From: Syntrophothermus lipocalidus DSM 12680
Lineage (GTDB): Bacteria > Bacillota > Syntrophomonadia > Syntrophomonadales > Syntrophothermaceae
Length of the DNA stretch: 64,000 bases
Assembly (NCBI RefSeq): GCF_000092405.1
Contig: NC_014220.1
Coordinates: forward strand, 1,240,001-1,304,000
Reading direction: 5' to 3'
In this document: positions 35,727 to 45,085 of the stretch, piece after piece
Layout of the letters: each line of letters opens with the position of its first letter
How positions within the stretch are numbered: the stretch's first letter is position 1
Position numbers and translations under genes: made by a program
The notes under the pieces: generated by a model
The model's input: the letters and a program-made list of their open reading frames with translations, nothing else
Told to the model about the DNA's origin: nothing
Database searches by the model: none

Positions 35727-37835
35727 CTACAGCCAGACCGCTTGCTTTCCTCCTATCCCGTACTTGGCAGCCTTGCGAACAACCGTTGATGCGTCAACCT
35801 TCAGCGCCCTGGCCATCTGGCGCGTCGTGCGGAACTGAACATAGGCTTTCTCTAATATCTGTTTCTCGACGCTTTCTACCGCCTCTCGTAAAGGAACTAT
35901 ATCTAAGACATGTACTTTATTCGACCAGTCCTTGGCCAAATTTCCGAAATGTGAAGGTAAATCCTGGACCGTTATGGTATCGCTAGGTGTTATTACCACC
36001 AGGCGCTCCATCAGGTTTTCCAACTCGCGAACGTTTCCCGGCCAGTCATATTCCATAAAAAGGTCAATTACTTCCGGAGAAATCCTTTTCACTTGCTTGT
36101 ACTTGCGGTTAAACACCTGAAGGAAATGGACTACCAGAGACGGAATCTCTTCCTTCCTCTGTCGCAACGGCGGCACATTTACTGGGACCACGTTCAGACG
36201 GTAGTACAAGTCTTCTCTAAACTCTTTTCTCCGCACCATATCTACCAGGTTACGGTTGGTCGCAGCCACGATACGGATGTCTACCTTGAGCGGCTTAATC
36301 CCTCCTACCCGCACGATTTCCCGGCTCTGTATTACCCGAAGCAGCTTTACTTGAAGGTTCAAAGGAAGATCTCCGATCTCATCCAAGAACAAAGTCCCGC
36401 CATTGGCTAATTCGAAATACCCAGCCTTCCCTTCCTTTCTCGCCCCAGTGAAAGCTCCGGCATCATAACCAAAAAGCTCCGATTCCAGCAAACTCTCAGG
36501 GATTGCCCCGCAGTTAACTTTGATGAAAGGCCCGTCTTTCCGAGCGCTGTTAGCGTGAATGGTTTCAGCTAGTAGTTCCTTCCCGGTACCTGACTCCCCC
36601 GTTATCAGTACTGTAGAATCGACTTGTGCTACTCTGATGATGGTTTCCATAAGATCCCTCATCCGCGGTGATCTCACGACCATCTTGCCCGATCCCGCAT
36701 ACTGCAAGCGGAGGGTTCGTAATTGCTTTTCATAGTGTTCACTCAAGCCCTCGACCTGCTCCAGCCTTTGTTTCAACATGTTCAATTCAGTTACGTCTCT
36801 GACATTACAGACCACCCTAAAAATATTGCCTTTCTTGTCGAAGACCGGCGTTCCCGTCGCTAGGGTTGTCTTGCCTGTCTTGGCATAAAGCTGAATAATA
36901 GTAACCGGTTGCCTTTGCTTTAAAACCTGAGCTGTAACCGACTCCGAAACGATTCCTTCTTCAACTATATCTTCAACATTCCGGTTCAAAAACTCACGCC
37001 CGTTGATTCCGGTTATCCGTTCAAATGCCTTATTAAGCCTTAAGGTTATTCCGTTCCCATCAGCGATGTAAAGGCCATCAAACGATGATTCGAAGACAGC
37101 ATTCAATTCTTCGTTCAGCTCTTTTACATATTTCAGTTCTTTGGATATCTCCTCTATCTCCGACATGTCCTGAAGAACAGCCACGGCTCCGATTATCTTG
37201 CCGTCCTTAATAATCGGGGTTCGGTTAGACACGAGAGTCCTCCCGTTCAACTCAACTTTCTGTAGGGTTTCCGGTCTTCCGCTCTTGACTACCTCGCCCA
37301 ACCCTGAGGAAGGAATTACGTCCGTGATTTTTTTCCCTCTTACCTCTCCCGCTTTCACTCCCAAGACTTCTTCGGCTGCCCGGTTAAAAACCTCGATCCG
37401 TTCATATTCGTCTATAGAAATAATCAAGTTGTGGGTTGAGTTTAGAATAGTCTCGAATTCAGTGCTCAGTTTGTGGTATGAATCGAAAAACACCCGCAAT
37501 AAGTTGGTACGAGTAACCATACCTACTACCTTATCCCCATCAACAACAGGGTATCTGCCTCTATCCGGATATATGATGCTGTCCAGCTCATCTTCGGGCG
37601 AACAGGTTTGAACATGGCGCGTCATAATCTGCTCGACTAATATTTCCGGGGACAAGCCTTGCCCCAGAACCCTCAACAAGTGGCTCTTAGTCAACAAGCC
37701 TACCAATCGCTGGTTCTGGTCGACCACCGGCGCGCTGTCGATCCTGTGTTCGGAAAAAACCCTGGCCGCCTCCCGGGCAGTCATACAAGGAGAAAGCATT
37801 ATCGGATCCGGAGTCATAATCTCGGCAAGTTTCAC
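35727..37835 (-). CDS. Sigma-54-dependent transcriptional activator (CBS-CBS-PAS-PAS-AAA+-HTH)
   Basis: 702 residues. CBS pair (1-120), two PAS domains (about 125-230 and 245-350), coiled coil (350-375), AAA+ domain with Walker A GESGTGKE (413-420) and an intact GAFTGA loop, and a TyrR/PrpR-type C-terminal HTH (TRQMARALKVDASTVVRKAAKYG). The GTG start follows GGAGGTGG. It has its own sigma-54 promoter and upstream dyads, suggesting autoactivation, and is a candidate regulator of the CaiB gene and of the beta-oxidation operon. The CBS/PAS input suggests energy or CoA-ester sensing. Confidence 0.93.
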   Translation of the reverse strand: MKLAEIMTPDPIMLSPCMTAREAARVFSEHRIDSAPVVDQNQRLVGLLTKSHLLRVLGQGLSPEILVEQIMTRHVQTCSPEDELDSIIYPDRGRYPVVDGDKVVGMVTRTNLLRVFFDSYHKLSTEFETILNSTHNLIISIDEYERIEVFNRAAEEVLGVKAGEVRGKKITDVIPSSGLGEVVKSGRPETLQKVELNGRTLVSNRTPIIKDGKIIGAVAVLQDMSEIEEISKELKYVKELNEELNAVFESSFDGLYIADGNGITLRLNKAFERITGINGREFLNRNVEDIVEEGIVSESVTAQVLKQRQPVTIIQLYAKTGKTTLATGTPVFDKKGNIFRVVCNVRDVTELNMLKQRLEQVEGLSEHYEKQLRTLRLQYAGSGKMVVRSPRMRDLMETIIRVAQVDSTVLITGESGTGKELLAETIHANSARKDGPFIKVNCGAIPESLLESELFGYDAGAFTGARKEGKAGYFELANGGTLFLDEIGDLPLNLQVKLLRVIQSREIVRVGGIKPLKVDIRIVAATNRNLVDMVRRKEFREDLYYRLNVVPVNVPPLRQRKEEIPSLVVHFLQVFNRKYKQVKRISPEVIDLFMEYDWPGNVRELENLMERLVVITPSDTITVQDLPSHFGNLAKDWSNKVHVLDIVPLREAVESVEKQILEKAYVQFRTTRQMARALKVDASTVVRKAAKYGIGGKQAVWL

Positions 37836-38384: not shown

Positions 38385-38680
38385 AGCTCTTGATCTAATT
38401 ATGCATCAACTAACTGAATAAAAGAATACTGAACGACTGGAGAGTTTTATGGTTGCGAGTAGACATGTTATACGGCAAGAATTGTGTGACAAGTTGCATG
38501 TTGCTATCAATACCAATATGCATCATGCCTGGTATCATATGCCACTACTATTAAACAGTTTATCTCATTATCCTAATCAAGCCAAGCGGCAAACGACGTG
38601 CAAAAGTGCCAGTAACCCGATTATATCGAAGCCAAATCAGTGCAAATTTGAGTTTTTTGTCCCTTCTCTGATAAAAAATT

Positions 38681-38716
38681 AACCCTGCCTCCCCGCTGCT
38701 GCGGGGAGGCAGGGTT
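38681..38716 (-). terminator. Strong intrinsic terminator of the zinc-ribbon/kinase operon
   Basis: Perfect 16-bp stem AACCCTGCCTCCCCGC / GCGGGGAGGCAGGGTT with a 4-nt loop, followed on the minus strand by TTAATTTTTTATC. About 190 bp after the stop of the lipoprotein gene. Confidence 0.85.
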
Positions 38717-38903
38717 GACCTTGCGTTACTTTCCGAACGAGCGCGACCCGCAAAACCTTATAGTTGACTTGTGATCTGTAGCCAGGAGCCCAGGCTCAGA
38801 GGCTTGTTGAAGCCCGGCTCCTAACTCTCAAACCTTCGTCACTACACAACATAGTTTTTCAATCGCTATTAGTCAGATAACTTCCGCGTCTCATCACTTA
38901 CCT

Positions 38904-40394
38904 CTAATGTTCAGCATCATCTTCCGCTGCAGCCACCATCTGGCCTGTCTCAGAAGACAACAGGGAACCGTCAGCCTGTTCTAGTGCTTCTACTAATCGC
39001 GTACCACAGGCATAACAGAACTTGTCCCCCGGCTTGTTAGGAAGCCCGCACTGAGGACAGCGATTGCCTATATCCGCCCCGCATTTACTGCAGAACTTGT
39101 CACCGGGGTTGAAGGGAGTTCCGCAGGAAGGACAAGCGTAAGGACTCTTGGGGCCTGCCACTTGCCCAAGGACGCCCTGAGCATAACCCTTGACTTTCTC
39201 CGGGTTCCTCCTGTAGTAGATAACCAGAACAATTACTATTCCCAAGACAAGTAACACCAGAACAGCCAGCGCTGCCAGGCCTACCCATGACAGTTCTTTC
39301 ACGTAAGCCTCCGCGTTCACGTACCCACTCGGCGCCTCCATCTTCAGTTCTTTGGCACCGCCGTTGACTTCCGTTCCCATAGCATCGACCATAGGCCCGT
39401 TGAACCTGGCCACGTATTTGAGGGGTTCTTCGATAGAGGCTCCCAGCCAGCTTGTGAAATCATACCTGTCCGCAAAATGATAGCGGTTATAAAGCCGGAA
39501 GAATGAACTAGGCTCCACCGGATCATACGTAAAAGCTCCTGCCCCAAAAATGGCGTCACATTTCTTCGCCAGTTCAGCCGGAGAATTGCCTTCCAGAGTA
39601 AAAGTATACCGTACAGTCCCGTTCTGCTGCTCCGTCTTAATCTTCGTTACTTTGGTCTTTTCTTTCAGAAACCGTGGAATGAGATTCTTTTCCTCTTGGT
39701 CTATGGCTTTAACTGTGTCCTGGTTAACCACCACGGTTACGGTCCTCGCAGGAGAGCTTTCCGATACCGCCGTCTCAACTTCAACCCGTTTCACGGGGTT
39801 TGACTTGGTCGAAGCAGCGCTCCACGCCGAGGTGTTTGTACTAGAAAAATCGCTCCACCCTGGCAACAGCACCTTGTTACTAACGGTTTCCACCATGCTG
39901 CTTTGGTTTTCCGAACTCACCAGGGGTTTCGCTGCGTCAATCGCCCACTGGAAGTAAGCGTTCATATCCGTATCTTCCTCGAGCACGTATTCGCGAGCAA
40001 AGGGACTCCCTTGCCTCGTAAAACGGATCTGGGGCTCGAAACCCAGTATCTGGGCTGATTTCTGTTTCAGCTCGTCTATGTTTTTGAAATCCATGGTAAA
40101 GGTGTATTGAACTCCAGATTCATCGGCACTTGAACTCATGGTCAGCACCTGAGGCATAGCCGCTTTTAAGGCCTGAGTTAACGCCGGTTCCCCGCCACTG
40201 ACCTGCTCTAAGTCCGACTGACTCACGTAAATGTGAAACGCCCTTTGCCCAGCCCCCTTTTCATTAACCGAAGTATCGACCGTGAGATCGGCCCCACAAC
40301 CTGTTAATAATAGCGTAATTACCAAAAGGACTGGTAGTAGCAAGACAACGGATTTTTTTCTACTTATCTTTGGTCCAAGGTTACTTATGCTCAT
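38904..40394 (-). CDS. Membrane lipoprotein with C-terminal double zinc ribbon
   Basis: 496 residues. The signal peptide ends in a lipobox (LLLTGC, Cys ~33), so it is lipidated outside the membrane. A long extracellular region (~35-370) with no named domain is followed by a membrane helix (LAALAVLVLLVLGIVIVLVI, ~372-392) and a cytoplasmic tail with two zinc ribbons (CPSCGTPFNPGDKFCSKCG and CPQCGLPNKPGDKFCYACG). The topology fits a sensor that joins the outside to zinc-ribbon partners. Last gene of the zinc-ribbon block; ATG 40394 follows AGGAGGAG. Confidence 0.8.
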   Translation of the reverse strand: MSISNLGPKISRKKSVVLLLPVLLVITLLLTGCGADLTVDTSVNEKGAGQRAFHIYVSQSDLEQVSGGEPALTQALKAAMPQVLTMSSSADESGVQYTFTMDFKNIDELKQKSAQILGFEPQIRFTRQGSPFAREYVLEEDTDMNAYFQWAIDAAKPLVSSENQSSMVETVSNKVLLPGWSDFSSTNTSAWSAASTKSNPVKRVEVETAVSESSPARTVTVVVNQDTVKAIDQEEKNLIPRFLKEKTKVTKIKTEQQNGTVRYTFTLEGNSPAELAKKCDAIFGAGAFTYDPVEPSSFFRLYNRYHFADRYDFTSWLGASIEEPLKYVARFNGPMVDAMGTEVNGGAKELKMEAPSGYVNAEAYVKELSWVGLAALAVLVLLVLGIVIVLVIYYRRNPEKVKGYAQGVLGQVAGPKSPYACPSCGTPFNPGDKFCSKCGADIGNRCPQCGLPNKPGDKFCYACGTRLVEALEQADGSLLSSETGQMVAAAEDDAEH

Positions 40395-40511
40395 TTTAAT
40401 CTCCTCCTGATTACTGTGATAAGTTCCTGGATGTCACAGATTTCCTGACATAAACCTACCTTCCCGCAACTTCAGGATCACGGGAAGGTAGTTCCTTTCA
40501 TATATCACGAA

Positions 40512-41522
40512 TTATGGTTGGTCAAAAGTGTACTCTATGTTTGCTAACCGTATCTTATCTTTGAAACTCAAGGGATACGGAACATTGCTGGAAAGCCTTT
40601 CGCCGTTAAGATATGTTCCGTTTTTGGATTCAAGATCGACGATATAATAAGCTCCGTCCTGGCGGATTATTTTGGCATGAACCCGCCCGATGCTCGGGTT
40701 ATCGGCTTCCCAGTAATCTACTGCCTCCCGGTTCCTTCCGATATAAAATTCGGGCTTATTGATAGGTATTATTTCTTCCTCTTCTGCCCGCTTTATCCTC
40801 AGGACCGGAAAAGGTTCTCCTTCTTCTACCTGTTCCAACAGACGGGTATCCCCTGAATCATCCAGAACTGTAGTCACTTCGTCTTCACCCGGGCCATACG
40901 CTTCTCCCCCCACATTGGCCGGTGAGGAAAACGGCGCAGATGTTCTCGCACTCCCGCCATATCCACCCGGCTCTAGCCTGGCGCCACATTGGGTGCAAAA
41001 AGCATTTCCACCCTCGTTTCTGGCACCGCACTGGATGCAGAACCTAGGGCCGGATCTTGCAAGCCCCGGCGCGGGAAGCGCTCCCCGGTTACGAACCATG
41101 AGATAGAGATTGAGCCCTGCCCCAGCCAGAAACAAAAGTAGGGTCAAATAATACCCGGCTCCCCACTGAGTAGTCAGGCCCTGGCTTACAGCCTCCTCGT
41201 CAAAACTGGATTTAAAAAGGTACATCGTAATTGGCCCAACTAAGCCAGCGGCAAAGGCAGCCACATTACTCAAACGGTTCTTCCAGAACCCGACTCCAAC
41301 ACCTACTAATGCAAGCACAAAGACCACGATAACCATCGGAAAAGGCCCTACAGACTCAGTCTCGCCAGTAGGTAACTGCACCATCTTGCCAAAAACCATG
41401 TTTACTCCGCTCAAAGTAACTATTTCCTGTCCACTACACGAAATGCTGACGAACGGCATTAGAAAACAAATGATGATAAGAGCAAATAACGCCGGTGAGA
41501 TTTTTTTCCCCAGGTTCTCCAT
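40512..41522 (-). CDS. Membrane protein with zinc ribbon and C-terminal FHA domain
   Basis: 336 residues. N-terminal membrane helix and three more up to ~150, then a zinc ribbon (CIQCGARNEGGNAFCTQCG, ~163-181), a disordered linker and an FHA domain (~235-335) with the phosphothreonine-binding elements FYIGRN, SIGRVHA and SKNGTYLNG. FHA domains read Thr-phosphorylation, so the kinase encoded two genes upstream is the natural partner. ATG 41522 follows AAGGAGG. Confidence 0.85.
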   Translation of the reverse strand: MENLGKKISPALFALIIICFLMPFVSISCSGQEIVTLSGVNMVFGKMVQLPTGETESVGPFPMVIVVFVLALVGVGVGFWKNRLSNVAAFAAGLVGPITMYLFKSSFDEEAVSQGLTTQWGAGYYLTLLLFLAGAGLNLYLMVRNRGALPAPGLARSGPRFCIQCGARNEGGNAFCTQCGARLEPGGYGGSARTSAPFSSPANVGGEAYGPGEDEVTTVLDDSGDTRLLEQVEEGEPFPVLRIKRAEEEEIIPINKPEFYIGRNREAVDYWEADNPSIGRVHAKIIRQDGAYYIVDLESKNGTYLNGERLSSNVPYPLSFKDKIRLANIEYTFDQP

Positions 41523-41645
41523 AGCCCTTCCTCCTTAACATGTAACTCCGGTTCTACCAAGTAATAATAGAAAACCAAACGCCAACAAACAATAACATAG
41601 TACTGATTTCTCTGTCACGCGATGATAACAGATGGTCTCCAGAGC

Positions 41646-42044
41646 TTATGATTGCTCTACTTTTCTTCCGCACTTAGCACAGAAACGCGCTCCCTGGCTA
41701 ACCGGCGCTCCGCATTCGCAGGTCCCGACCGTCACCGGTTTTCCCAACGCAGCTTGAGCCTCGGCCCTCAACCTCTGCATCTCTTCTTCTTTTACCTTTA
41801 TCTGTTGGTCTATTCCGGCAATCTCCTGGTATTTGCTCATTACTCTGGATTGGTCAAAGTTATCGCGGGATAGCATGACATAGACTATGTTGCCCAGCTC
41901 CTCGATGGAATCCTTCTTCTTTCGCTGCAAAGAATCTATTTCAGCCTTCAACTTCGTTACTTCGACCAGCTCTTTCGACCGAACACTTACCGTACTGACT
42001 CCCTTATTGATACCGTCCTTTACCTTGTCAAAAAAGTCCGCCAT
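41646..42044 (-). CDS. Coiled-coil protein with C-terminal zinc ribbon
   Basis: 132 residues from ATG 42044 (AAAGGAGGGG upstream). An amphipathic N-terminus (MADFFDKVKDGINKGVSTV), long coiled coil (~20-95; ELVEVTKLKAEIDSLQRKK) and zinc ribbon (CECGAPVSQGARFCAKCG). No named family beyond the ribbon. Probably an adaptor between kinase and membrane proteins of this block. Confidence 0.75.
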   Translation of the reverse strand: MADFFDKVKDGINKGVSTVSVRSKELVEVTKLKAEIDSLQRKKKDSIEELGNIVYVMLSRDNFDQSRVMSKYQEIAGIDQQIKVKEEEMQRLRAEAQAALGKPVTVGTCECGAPVSQGARFCAKCGRKVEQS

Positions 42045-42251
42045 CGCACCCCTCCTTTCCCAGCGTGACAAGAGAACACAAGAGACTAGCCCCCCTCCAG
42101 TAGCAAGCCCATGGTCAAGAATCAACCCCATCCACGAACAAGCCTTGAACAATGCGTCCCAACTGCCATGCTCCGTATGTTGTCCAGACCGCCTTTTGAT
42201 CTGCCAAGTCAGGACTTCAGCTGCTCTTTGCGGTTTCCTTTGCGTATCATA

Positions 42252-44207
42252 CTAGATATACCCATAGGCATATGCTAGTTCCCGAACGCTGCTGTGCGGC
42301 GGTACGCCGTTGGGAAAGCAGGCTTTTCCTCCATAAAACTCGATACTACTTCGCTCGGTGGTCATTTCGCTTATTACCGGATAGCAGACCCTGTTGTTGT
42401 TATCTGTGAGATAAGGCTTTCCTAGAACAATATCTCCCTCCACCACTACAGCTTTCGGTATCTGCACCCAATACGCGTCTTTTTGGTAAAGGACCACATC
42501 TATGGTGCTACCGTGCCCTCCCTGTATAATACCTGCTGCCTCCAATTCAGGAATATCCACCACGCAGCTCGGTTGAGACGGCACAGCTGGCTGTGATTGC
42601 TGCTGGCCGGTTTGAGGCTGGGGAAGACTGATCACGCTGTTTTGTTGAAGTTGTGAGGATGATTGGGATTGTTGCTGTGGTTTATTAGGTTGCTGCTCGG
42701 ATTTCGCTTGAGGCTCTGTTTGTTTCTGGGATTCCCCCTGTAGTTCCAGTTGTTGATCTGACAGGTTGGTCTCTTGTTGATTCGTTCCCTGCTGCTTTTG
42801 AAATCCCTTACTTTGGATGTCCCCCATTCCAGCCTTGCTAGTTACTTTTGACCTATCAAATCCATCATTCAAAACAGCGTGGTTTCGGCTCTGAAAGTAG
42901 CTGACGGAGCCAAATATGGCCAGTATCAGAAGAACAACGGCAACAACTGGTGCTACAAATCGGGTATTTCTCGAGGTGTCTTTGACCGCTAATTCTGAAT
43001 ACCCAGTTTGAGGGACAAAATTTCTATCTTTGTTCATTACAGTTGAGGAAAAGTTTGCAGCTCCCTCACCCATGGGCGCGGTCTCCACAGTACTCTGGTC
43101 TGGAGGTACCGTAGGAGTATCCACTTCGATCCCGACTGTCAAGCCTTCTACCGCTTTTAAAGGCAAAGATTTGCCCACGGGAAAGTCACTCGTTTCACCT
43201 GTCTCCCCCGAAGCAGTCACCTTTACCTCCTTCTTTTCGTCAACGAGCGAAGAAAGCTCCGTACCGTGCTTCTCCGACTGTACAATCGCGGGATTATGAA
43301 CCTCAACTTCGCCACCCGGCAAAAGGGCCATCATCTCCCGGGCGCTAGCGGGCCGATCCTCAACCCTCAGTTGGAGGGCTTTCATTACTGCTGATTCCAT
43401 ACGACCAGAAACCTTCACGAATTGGCTTGGGGGCTGAAAGTTAAAGGGATTCCGTGATGGATCGCGTCCGGTAAGCAAGTAATGCAAGGTGGCGCCCAGA
43501 GCATAAATGTCCGACTGAGGAACGGTCTGGTGCTCGCCATACTGTTCGGGAGGAGCAAACCCGGTTGACCCGTAGGCCAAGGTATCTGCATAGCTATCTC
43601 GACGAAAGTGCCTGGCAATACCGAAATCTATCAGTTTAATCCGAGCATCTGGTGTCAGCATGATGTTGGCCGGTTTCAGGTCTCGAAATATAATTGGGGG
43701 ATCCTGGCTGTGGAGGTAATCCAGAATCTCGCAGAGCTGTCTCGCCCAGTTTACTACTTCTGTTTCCGGTATGGGGCCCCGCTTTTCCACCAGAGTCTTG
43801 AGGGTTTGCCCTTCAATACAATCCATCACTAGATACCAACGGTCCTTTCCACAGCTGAAGAAGTCCGTTATTCTTGGTAGGGCCGGATGTCGCAAGCTGA
43901 TTAATATTGAAGCCTCTTTCTTGAAAGCCTCTATCGCTGCCTGAATATTCCCAGGACTGACAGCACTGGTACTCATTTCTTTTATGGCCACTGGGATGTT
44001 ATTAAGCCTGGTATCCAACGCCTGGTAAACTGCTCCCATTCCACCCCGGCCAAGAGTCTTGACTATTACGTACCGTCCTTCAAGAACCGAGTCGGGTTTG
44101 AGCCACCCGGTTCTGGAAAAATCGTCGGTAAGACTCTGCCCACATTCGCTGCAAAAGTTTTTGCCATCAGGATTCTCTGTTTGGCAAGATGGACACTTTC
44201 TCGACAT
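42252..44207 (-). CDS. Serine/threonine protein kinase with N-terminal zinc ribbon
   Basis: 651 residues. Zinc ribbon (CPSCQTENPDGKNFCSECG, 5-23), then a Hanks-type kinase domain (~43-310): GRGGMGAVYQA, Lys in VAIKEM, catalytic loop IIFRDLKPANIML (FRD in place of HRD, Asp kept), DFG and the P+1 APPEQYG. A membrane helix (VAPVVAVVLLILAIFGSVSY) near 415-435, a Gln-rich linker (~470-545) and an extracellular C-terminal domain of ~100 residues follow. It likely senses an outside signal and phosphorylates the FHA proteins on each side. ATG 44207 follows TTGGGGG. Confidence 0.9.
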   Translation of the reverse strand: MSRKCPSCQTENPDGKNFCSECGQSLTDDFSRTGWLKPDSVLEGRYVIVKTLGRGGMGAVYQALDTRLNNIPVAIKEMSTSAVSPGNIQAAIEAFKKEASILISLRHPALPRITDFFSCGKDRWYLVMDCIEGQTLKTLVEKRGPIPETEVVNWARQLCEILDYLHSQDPPIIFRDLKPANIMLTPDARIKLIDFGIARHFRRDSYADTLAYGSTGFAPPEQYGEHQTVPQSDIYALGATLHYLLTGRDPSRNPFNFQPPSQFVKVSGRMESAVMKALQLRVEDRPASAREMMALLPGGEVEVHNPAIVQSEKHGTELSSLVDEKKEVKVTASGETGETSDFPVGKSLPLKAVEGLTVGIEVDTPTVPPDQSTVETAPMGEGAANFSSTVMNKDRNFVPQTGYSELAVKDTSRNTRFVAPVVAVVLLILAIFGSVSYFQSRNHAVLNDGFDRSKVTSKAGMGDIQSKGFQKQQGTNQQETNLSDQQLELQGESQKQTEPQAKSEQQPNKPQQQSQSSSQLQQNSVISLPQPQTGQQQSQPAVPSQPSCVVDIPELEAAGIIQGGHGSTIDVVLYQKDAYWVQIPKAVVVEGDIVLGKPYLTDNNNRVCYPVISEMTTERSSIEFYGGKACFPNGVPPHSSVRELAYAYGYI

Positions 44208-44348
44208 CTCGCACCCCCAATTGAGCTATTACGAAAGCAAGAGAGCCATCCAAGTTGAAAGTGTAAAACCCAGCAAACCAAGTACACTTTCTACGTTCTT
44301 CTCCATTTTTCCTTCCCAGAAAAATATCTCACGCCCCAAAAAATGTGG

Positions 44349-44374
44349 TATAATCTCTCCGAGCGAATGCTCGG
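44349..44374 (+). promoter_or_regulatory. Extended -10 promoter with operator-like dyad for the FHA-winged-helix gene
   Basis: TGGTATAAT (TATAAT 44349-44354) is an extended -10; directly after it, at the expected start of transcription, lies the perfect dyad CCGAGC-GAAT-GCTCGG (44359-44374). The region is shared with the divergent kinase gene, so the dyad may be the regulator's own operator. Confidence 0.5.
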
Positions 44375-44392
44375 ATATTGGTAGGTGCAGGT

Positions 44393-45085
44393 ATGGTTGA
44401 TTCGGGGGCTGTTTTAATAGTCGAACAAGGCGAACCTCATGATAAAAGAACCGCTATCAAATTGGCGCCGGGTGAGGCATTGATCGGTCGGCCATGGAAA
44501 ACCCACCATCCTGATATTCCGTTTACCAGCCTCTACATTTCCAAAAAGCATGCCGTGCTTTCGTTCCAAGATAACCAGGCTACCATTACCGACCTAGCGA
44601 GCAGACACGGGACTCAGGTTAACGGAAACCAGCTCGTGCCCTATGAACCATACCCCCTCAAACATGGCGATATCATAAGCCTAGCTGGAGGAATAGTGTT
44701 GCTTACGTTTCACAATATGTACGAAACCGAATTCGAGCAAACACTTGATCTAACACAGCCTCCCGCCAATAGGTCAATACTTCCTCAGTCCCTGGTAGTT
44801 AACGGCGACCGGAGAGAAGTCCTGTTGAATGGGAAACCCTTACGCCTATCAGGAAAAGATGCAGAACTTCTGATTGTTCTTTATGAAAACCGTGGCAAGG
44901 CTATCAGCTACGATGAAATTAGACGCAGGGTGTGGCCTGAGCGTCCCCCGAGTCCACAGACTAATGTACCTGATGTCGGTAACGATGAAATCACGTCCCT
45001 GGTATACCGTCTGCGTAAACGCCTCGGCCAACACGGAAACCTCATTGTCACTATCCCTCGCTACGGATATATGCTTGATCTCTGA
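44393..45085 (+). CDS. FHA domain protein with C-terminal OmpR-type winged helix
   Basis: 230 residues from ATG 44393 (TAGGTGCAGG upstream). N-terminal FHA domain (~10-115: ALIGRPW, YISKKHAVLSF, SRHGTQVNGNQL) and C-terminal winged helix (~140-230: LRLSGKDAELLIVLYENRGK, SLVYRLRKRLG, IPRYGYML). This is the reverse of EmbR (winged helix first, FHA last). Divergent from the Ser/Thr kinase gene, it is likely the DNA-binding output of that kinase. Confidence 0.88.
   Translation: MVDSGAVLIVEQGEPHDKRTAIKLAPGEALIGRPWKTHHPDIPFTSLYISKKHAVLSFQDNQATITDLASRHGTQVNGNQLVPYEPYPLKHGDIISLAGGIVLLTFHNMYETEFEQTLDLTQPPANRSILPQSLVVNGDRREVLLNGKPLRLSGKDAELLIVLYENRGKAISYDEIRRRVWPERPPSPQTNVPDVGNDEITSLVYRLRKRLGQHGNLIVTIPRYGYMLDL

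Follow-up and report, generated by a model that had tools for sequence, protein, structure and literature searches.

The analyzed window is a 64,000-nucleotide stretch of the genome of the butyrate degrader Syntrophothermus lipocalidus DSM 12680, and positions below are counted from its first letter unless stated otherwise. All five genes of the region 38904–45085 are present, and the domains they encode score above the Pfam cut-offs. As originally predicted, four adjacent genes on the minus strand each carry a zinc ribbon, and a divergent gene on the plus strand encodes a protein in which an FHA domain is combined with an OmpR-type winged helix (here referred to as FHA-wHTH). The features of the region are as follows.

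38904–40394, minus strand: putative LppM-like lipoprotein (Pfam DZR, 41.7 bits; AF2 model and Foldseek; homologues in L091 and L092)
40512–41522, minus strand: membrane zinc-ribbon protein with a C-terminal FHA domain (Pfam FHA, 57.3 bits; Zn_Ribbon_1, 27.3 bits)
41646–42044 (ORF open to 42152), minus strand: coiled-coil protein with a C-terminal zinc ribbon (Pfam Zn_Ribbon_1, 25.9 bits)
42252–44207, minus strand: transmembrane Ser/Thr kinase with an N-terminal zinc ribbon, here referred to as ZR-kinase (Pfam Pkinase, 145 bits)
44208–44392, no strand: divergent intergenic region with two dyads, candidate operators
44393–45085 (ORF from 44378), plus strand: FHA-wHTH, predicted DNA-binding protein (Pfam FHA, 63.7 bits; Trans_reg_C, 44.5 bits)

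For the coiled-coil gene, the probable start is the ATG at 42044, which has GGAGG just before it and corresponds to the start of the homologue in L092, while alignment of homologues makes the ATG at 44393 the likely start of FHA-wHTH. Gaps of about 207, 123 and 117 bp separate the four minus-strand genes, and between the FHA membrane gene and the lipoprotein gene there is a hairpin resembling a terminator (40456–40491, minus strand); a single transcript for the four genes is therefore uncertain. The minus strand also has, at 38670–38720, a strong GC-rich hairpin with a run of T after it, a likely terminator 3' of the lipoprotein gene. At 35727–37835 a CBS-PAS sigma-54 activator adjoins the cluster, and ORFs resembling it by size alone occur in L092 (1917–4040) and L051 (527–2620), several kb from the related genes.

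The divergent region of 185 bp contains a 9-bp dyad, GAAAGTGTA-N17-TACACTTTC, at 44257–44291 (0.03 expected per window) and a second short palindrome, TCCGAGC-N4-GCTCGGA, at 44358–44375. Autoregulation at the divergent promoter would be plausible. An operator conserved 5' of FHA-wHTH genes was also considered and rejected, as neither S. lipocalidus dyad was found upstream of the homologues.

The lipoprotein possesses the lipobox LLTGC, and its predicted topology consists of an extracytoplasmic region with a putative LppM fold, a single transmembrane helix at about residues 370–396 and a double zinc ribbon (residues 421–467) on the cytoplasmic side. Its AF2 model is of moderate confidence (mean pLDDT 68.7), and in Foldseek this model matched LppM of Mycobacterium tuberculosis (2nc8) with a probability of 1.00 and a TM-score of 0.55 over the target, but with an E-value of 4e-3 and 12% identity. 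By sequence, its only matches among solved structures were zinc fingers. That the LppM-like protein acts as a sensor is our guess from the topology and the weak fold match. The coiled-coil protein has its zinc ribbon at residues 146–164, with a score close to the cut-off of 25 bits, and is 58% identical to the protein of L092:8482–8883, which is encoded near the lipoprotein homologue.

In the membrane protein, the zinc ribbon (residues 161–183) is followed by the FHA domain (residues 260–326), and the acidic Thr motif EVTTVLDDSGDTRLL is located upstream of the latter. This FHA domain keeps the Arg of the phosphate site, but the Ser of SxxH is replaced by Gly, as it also is in the YukD-FHA fusion described below and in a DUF6382-FHA protein of genome G119. 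The gene of the G119 protein (L094:2634–4196) adjoins a PP2C gene and apparent Tad pilus genes, with an FHA-wHTH gene about 10 kb off.

ZR-kinase comprises the zinc ribbon (residues 4–26), the Pkinase domain (residues 46–253) with intact catalytic motifs (VAIK, FRDLKPAN and DFG), a membrane-spanning segment around residue 430 and, at the C-terminus, an extracytoplasmic part. Its kinase region shares 57–74% identity with proteins of G230, G329 and G431 (74% over 291 aa in G329, where the protein is short with 360 aa, and 67% over 345 aa in G230). A defence system was rejected, since PADLOC matched no gene of the cluster but the kinase, for the most part with PD-T4-6 and further kinase models. 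FHA-wHTH was modelled by AF2 with a pLDDT of 81.5, and Foldseek gave FHA matches. We searched the whole S. lipocalidus genome (2,405,559 bases, one contig) and found only two FHA domains, those of the membrane protein and FHA-wHTH, along with three kinases over the cut-off and two PP2C.

We then surveyed 398 sampled genomes of the phylum. Relatives of FHA-wHTH with more than 40% identity are present in 7 other genomes and relatives of ZR-kinase in 3; FHA-wHTH is 55–56% identical to its relatives in two Bacillota genomes with genes of the type VII secretion system (T7SS). Among the order's other 62 genomes, no relative of either protein was found (E 1e-10). Genome contigs were also scanned with a profile built from an alignment of five FHA-wHTH sequences, and outside Bacillota the matches spanned the FHA domain alone or the winged helix alone, with no full FHA-wHTH among them. 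The family is widespread in Bacillota and apparently uncharacterised.

Most FHA-wHTH homologues have no adjoining kinase (G119, G243, G267, Fictibacillus, Paenibacillus and Tumebacillus), and this, like the 117–207 bp gaps and the terminator-like hairpin, favors a chance neighbourhood in which envelope genes, kinase and regulator are independent. However, ZR-kinase adjoins FHA-wHTH in G329 (L033), both are present in G230 on different contigs, and other kinases adjoin FHA-wHTH in G205 (together with PP2C) and in G404. ZR-kinase and FHA-wHTH overlap in 2 of 397 other sampled genomes (hypergeometric P about 8e-4, without correction for kinship). We consider a chance neighbourhood unlikely. A link between kinase and transcription factor, as had been predicted, is supported by these genomes at the level of gene linkage, but not the further idea that the whole cluster forms one module.

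The kinase and FHA parts have relatives in T7SS loci. The G329 locus encodes WXG100 (79.6 bits), an EssC-type ATPase, a YukD-FHA fusion, a second membrane FHA protein, a TPR-kinase and PP2C, and in G230 these T7SS genes lie together on contig L041, with FHA-wHTH on a separate contig, L035. EssC from these T7SS genes scores 1328 bits to TIGR03928. The two genomes belong to different families, and their EssC proteins are 94% identical versus 60% for FHA-wHTH, a contrast suggesting that the secretion genes moved horizontally; therefore G230 and G329 are not two independent witnesses. The loci L033, L034 and L052 of G329 and L041 of G230, with YukD-FHA fusion, TPR-kinase and PP2C, possibly represent an unlisted T7SS arrangement, and the zinc-ribbon kinase of L041 carries a SecDF P1 domain.

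In S. lipocalidus, the membrane FHA domain is 76% identical to YukD-FHA of G329, and Pfam gave no YukD match in either FHA protein of the genome. Moreover, a second locus, L031 (genome positions 1,362,000–1,374,000), encodes a TPR-kinase, PP2C, a TPR protein and two zinc-ribbon proteins, all within L031:1–8011 (genome positions 1,362,000–1,370,010). Compared with the relatives in T7SS loci, its TPR-kinase is 61–64% identical over the full length and its PP2C 49–53%. The same stretch also encodes a protein homologous to the T7SS membrane FHA protein but without the FHA domain, and this protein retains a TT motif. Accessory kinase, PP2C and FHA of T7SS-locus type are therefore present in S. lipocalidus, and such accessory parts are not universal in T7SS. 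No WXG100 protein exceeded the cut-off in the genome (best score 15.1 bits against 27.3), and the EssC of G329 as query found only a 33% partial match in a 728-aa ORF, presumably FtsK/SpoIIIE.

These two absences, together with the lack of FHA in the membrane protein of L031, could be taken to mean that a T7SS locus was lost and that the region is what remains of it, in decay and with its regulatory role gone. Yet the ORFs of ZR-kinase, FHA-wHTH, TPR-kinase and PP2C are unbroken and keep conserved active or binding residues, and the T7SS-type FHA domain is still present, fused to a different membrane protein. We regard such decay as quite improbable.

The envelope genes recur on their own. G291 (L091) has the lipoprotein with zinc ribbon, the membrane zinc-ribbon protein and a further zinc-ribbon protein that has a relative in L031; G096 (L092) has the lipoprotein, the membrane part and the coiled-coil zinc-ribbon protein, as well as the same further zinc-ribbon protein as G291. 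No kinase or FHA was found in the stretches read around these two clusters, and in both genomes the homologues of the membrane protein stop before the FHA domain, the G096 copy being short. We infer from these sequences that a T7SS-type FHA domain was joined to an envelope protein, leaving aside the direction and order of events. In turn, the T7SS loci related to the kinase and FHA parts have no such lipoprotein. A single conserved module is not supported by this distribution. A single envelope-sensing path from lipoprotein through kinase to FHA-wHTH, bound by contacts between zinc ribbons, is suggested by the adjacency of the four zinc-ribbon genes but is very unlikely, because FHA-wHTH and the lipoprotein homologue of G096 have no zinc ribbon and because the lipoprotein and kinase parts occur apart; zinc-ribbon contacts as the glue of the cluster, also part of the original prediction, are likewise not supported.

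The best reading of the cluster is that of two neighbouring modules, namely kinase and FHA parts of T7SS type and a separate envelope cluster. We give about an even chance to the idea that it signals through phosphothreonine and that T7SS-type parts have here been joined to an envelope cluster, in a genome where T7SS ATPase and WXG100 were not found.

We further focused on the regulator. The phosphate site of its FHA domain contains Arg, Ser and His, with R38 and S55 invariant in 16 of 16 aligned sequences, and most of them have His at the Asn position of NGT. Loss of the phosphothreonine-binding Arg or Ser, which the original prediction had named as evidence against itself, is thus seen in one of the two S. 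lipocalidus FHA domains, that of the membrane protein with its Ser-to-Gly change. In the linker between FHA and winged helix, the single invariant column is a Thr (16 of 16 sequences), which in S. lipocalidus is residue 117 from the ATG at 44393 and 122 in the ORF numbering. After merging of close relatives, the 16 sequences gave 12 clade representatives. All 12 have [DEG]xT 18–24 residues past the FHA anchor (shuffle mean 2.8) and all 12 have [DEG]xTxx(hydrophobic) (shuffle mean 0.98, maximum 6 in 20,000 shuffles), figures that overstate the case because the motif was defined after the alignment was seen and the sequences are related. The linker around the Thr is poorly modelled, with pLDDT below 50 at residues 116–118, 120–122 and 126–136. 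Judged from this conservation, the invariant Thr is a good candidate for a phospho-switch of FHA-wHTH, and we propose it as such; it could be structural instead.

Four known systems were compared. First, the T7SS variants T7SSc–T7SSj are described (PMC11217815) as Bacillota loci that encode a transmembrane Ser/Thr kinase, a PP2C-type (PPM) phosphatase and FHA proteins together, and relatives of the S. lipocalidus genes sit in a locus with EssC and WXG100; the difference is that neither EssC nor WXG100 was found in S. lipocalidus. The original prediction had known of no named system of this composition, and the described T7SS loci correct it in this respect. In the passages of that paper compared, however, an FHA-wHTH regulator, a zinc-ribbon kinase and a YukD-FHA fusion are not named, and the word "zinc" has no occurrence in its main text. 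Second, EmbR of M. tuberculosis, which is controlled by the Ser/Thr kinase PknH, likewise combines FHA and an OmpR-type winged helix in one regulator, but in the order winged helix, BTA and C-terminal FHA, whereas in FHA-wHTH the FHA domain comes first and there is no BTA match (PMC4601284). EmbR-PknH is a precedent for the proposed signalling, and the invariant linker Thr is suggestive, no more, of kinase control of FHA-wHTH. Third, GarA/OdhI with PknG have an acidic Thr motif beside the FHA domain as phosphorylation site, and the acidic TT motifs of the T7SS-type FHA proteins and of the FHA-less L031 protein resemble their ETTS site, a second precedent; unlike FHA-wHTH, GarA/OdhI regulate metabolic enzymes, have no DNA-binding domain and carry the motif N-terminal to FHA (PMC8546545). 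Fourth, ArnA-ArnB of Sulfolobus unite zinc finger and FHA in one protein and act on gene expression with Ser/Thr kinases, but the zinc finger is of RanBP2 type, the partner is a vWA protein, and the system is archaeal and regulates motility (PMC6509490). That T7SS loci can encode kinases, phosphatases and FHA proteins is already known (PMC11217815), as is, from EmbR, the union of FHA with winged helix in the other order (PMC4601284). Within the T7SS and FHA literature compared, we found no description of an FHA-first regulator family with an invariant linker Thr, nor of T7SS-type regulatory parts in a genome that yielded neither EssC nor WXG100.

Tentatively, we suggest that a T7SS-type phosphothreonine relay has been freed from the secretion machine and joined to an LppM/zinc-ribbon envelope cluster, reaching transcription through FHA-wHTH with its linker-Thr switch, a possible but doubtful course of events. 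The working that we propose belongs already to the signalling cluster given about an even chance above. In it, an envelope signal would activate the transmembrane ZR-kinase, and this kinase or the TPR-kinase of the second locus would phosphorylate acidic Thr motifs: TTxL(L) in the membrane proteins and, in FHA-wHTH, the invariant Thr of the linker. The FHA domain of the regulator would bind phosphothreonine, its most likely ligand being the linker Thr of the same chain in cis or of the partner in a dimer, and this binding would alter DNA binding by the winged helix and transcription at its presumed targets. PP2C would reverse the phosphorylation.

If this is true, the FHA-wHTH regulator family would have a concrete single-residue switch across Bacillota, and regulatory parts of T7SS loci could persist without secretion. 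It would also mean that, in Gram-positive lineages, Ser/Thr kinases have a direct path to promoters.
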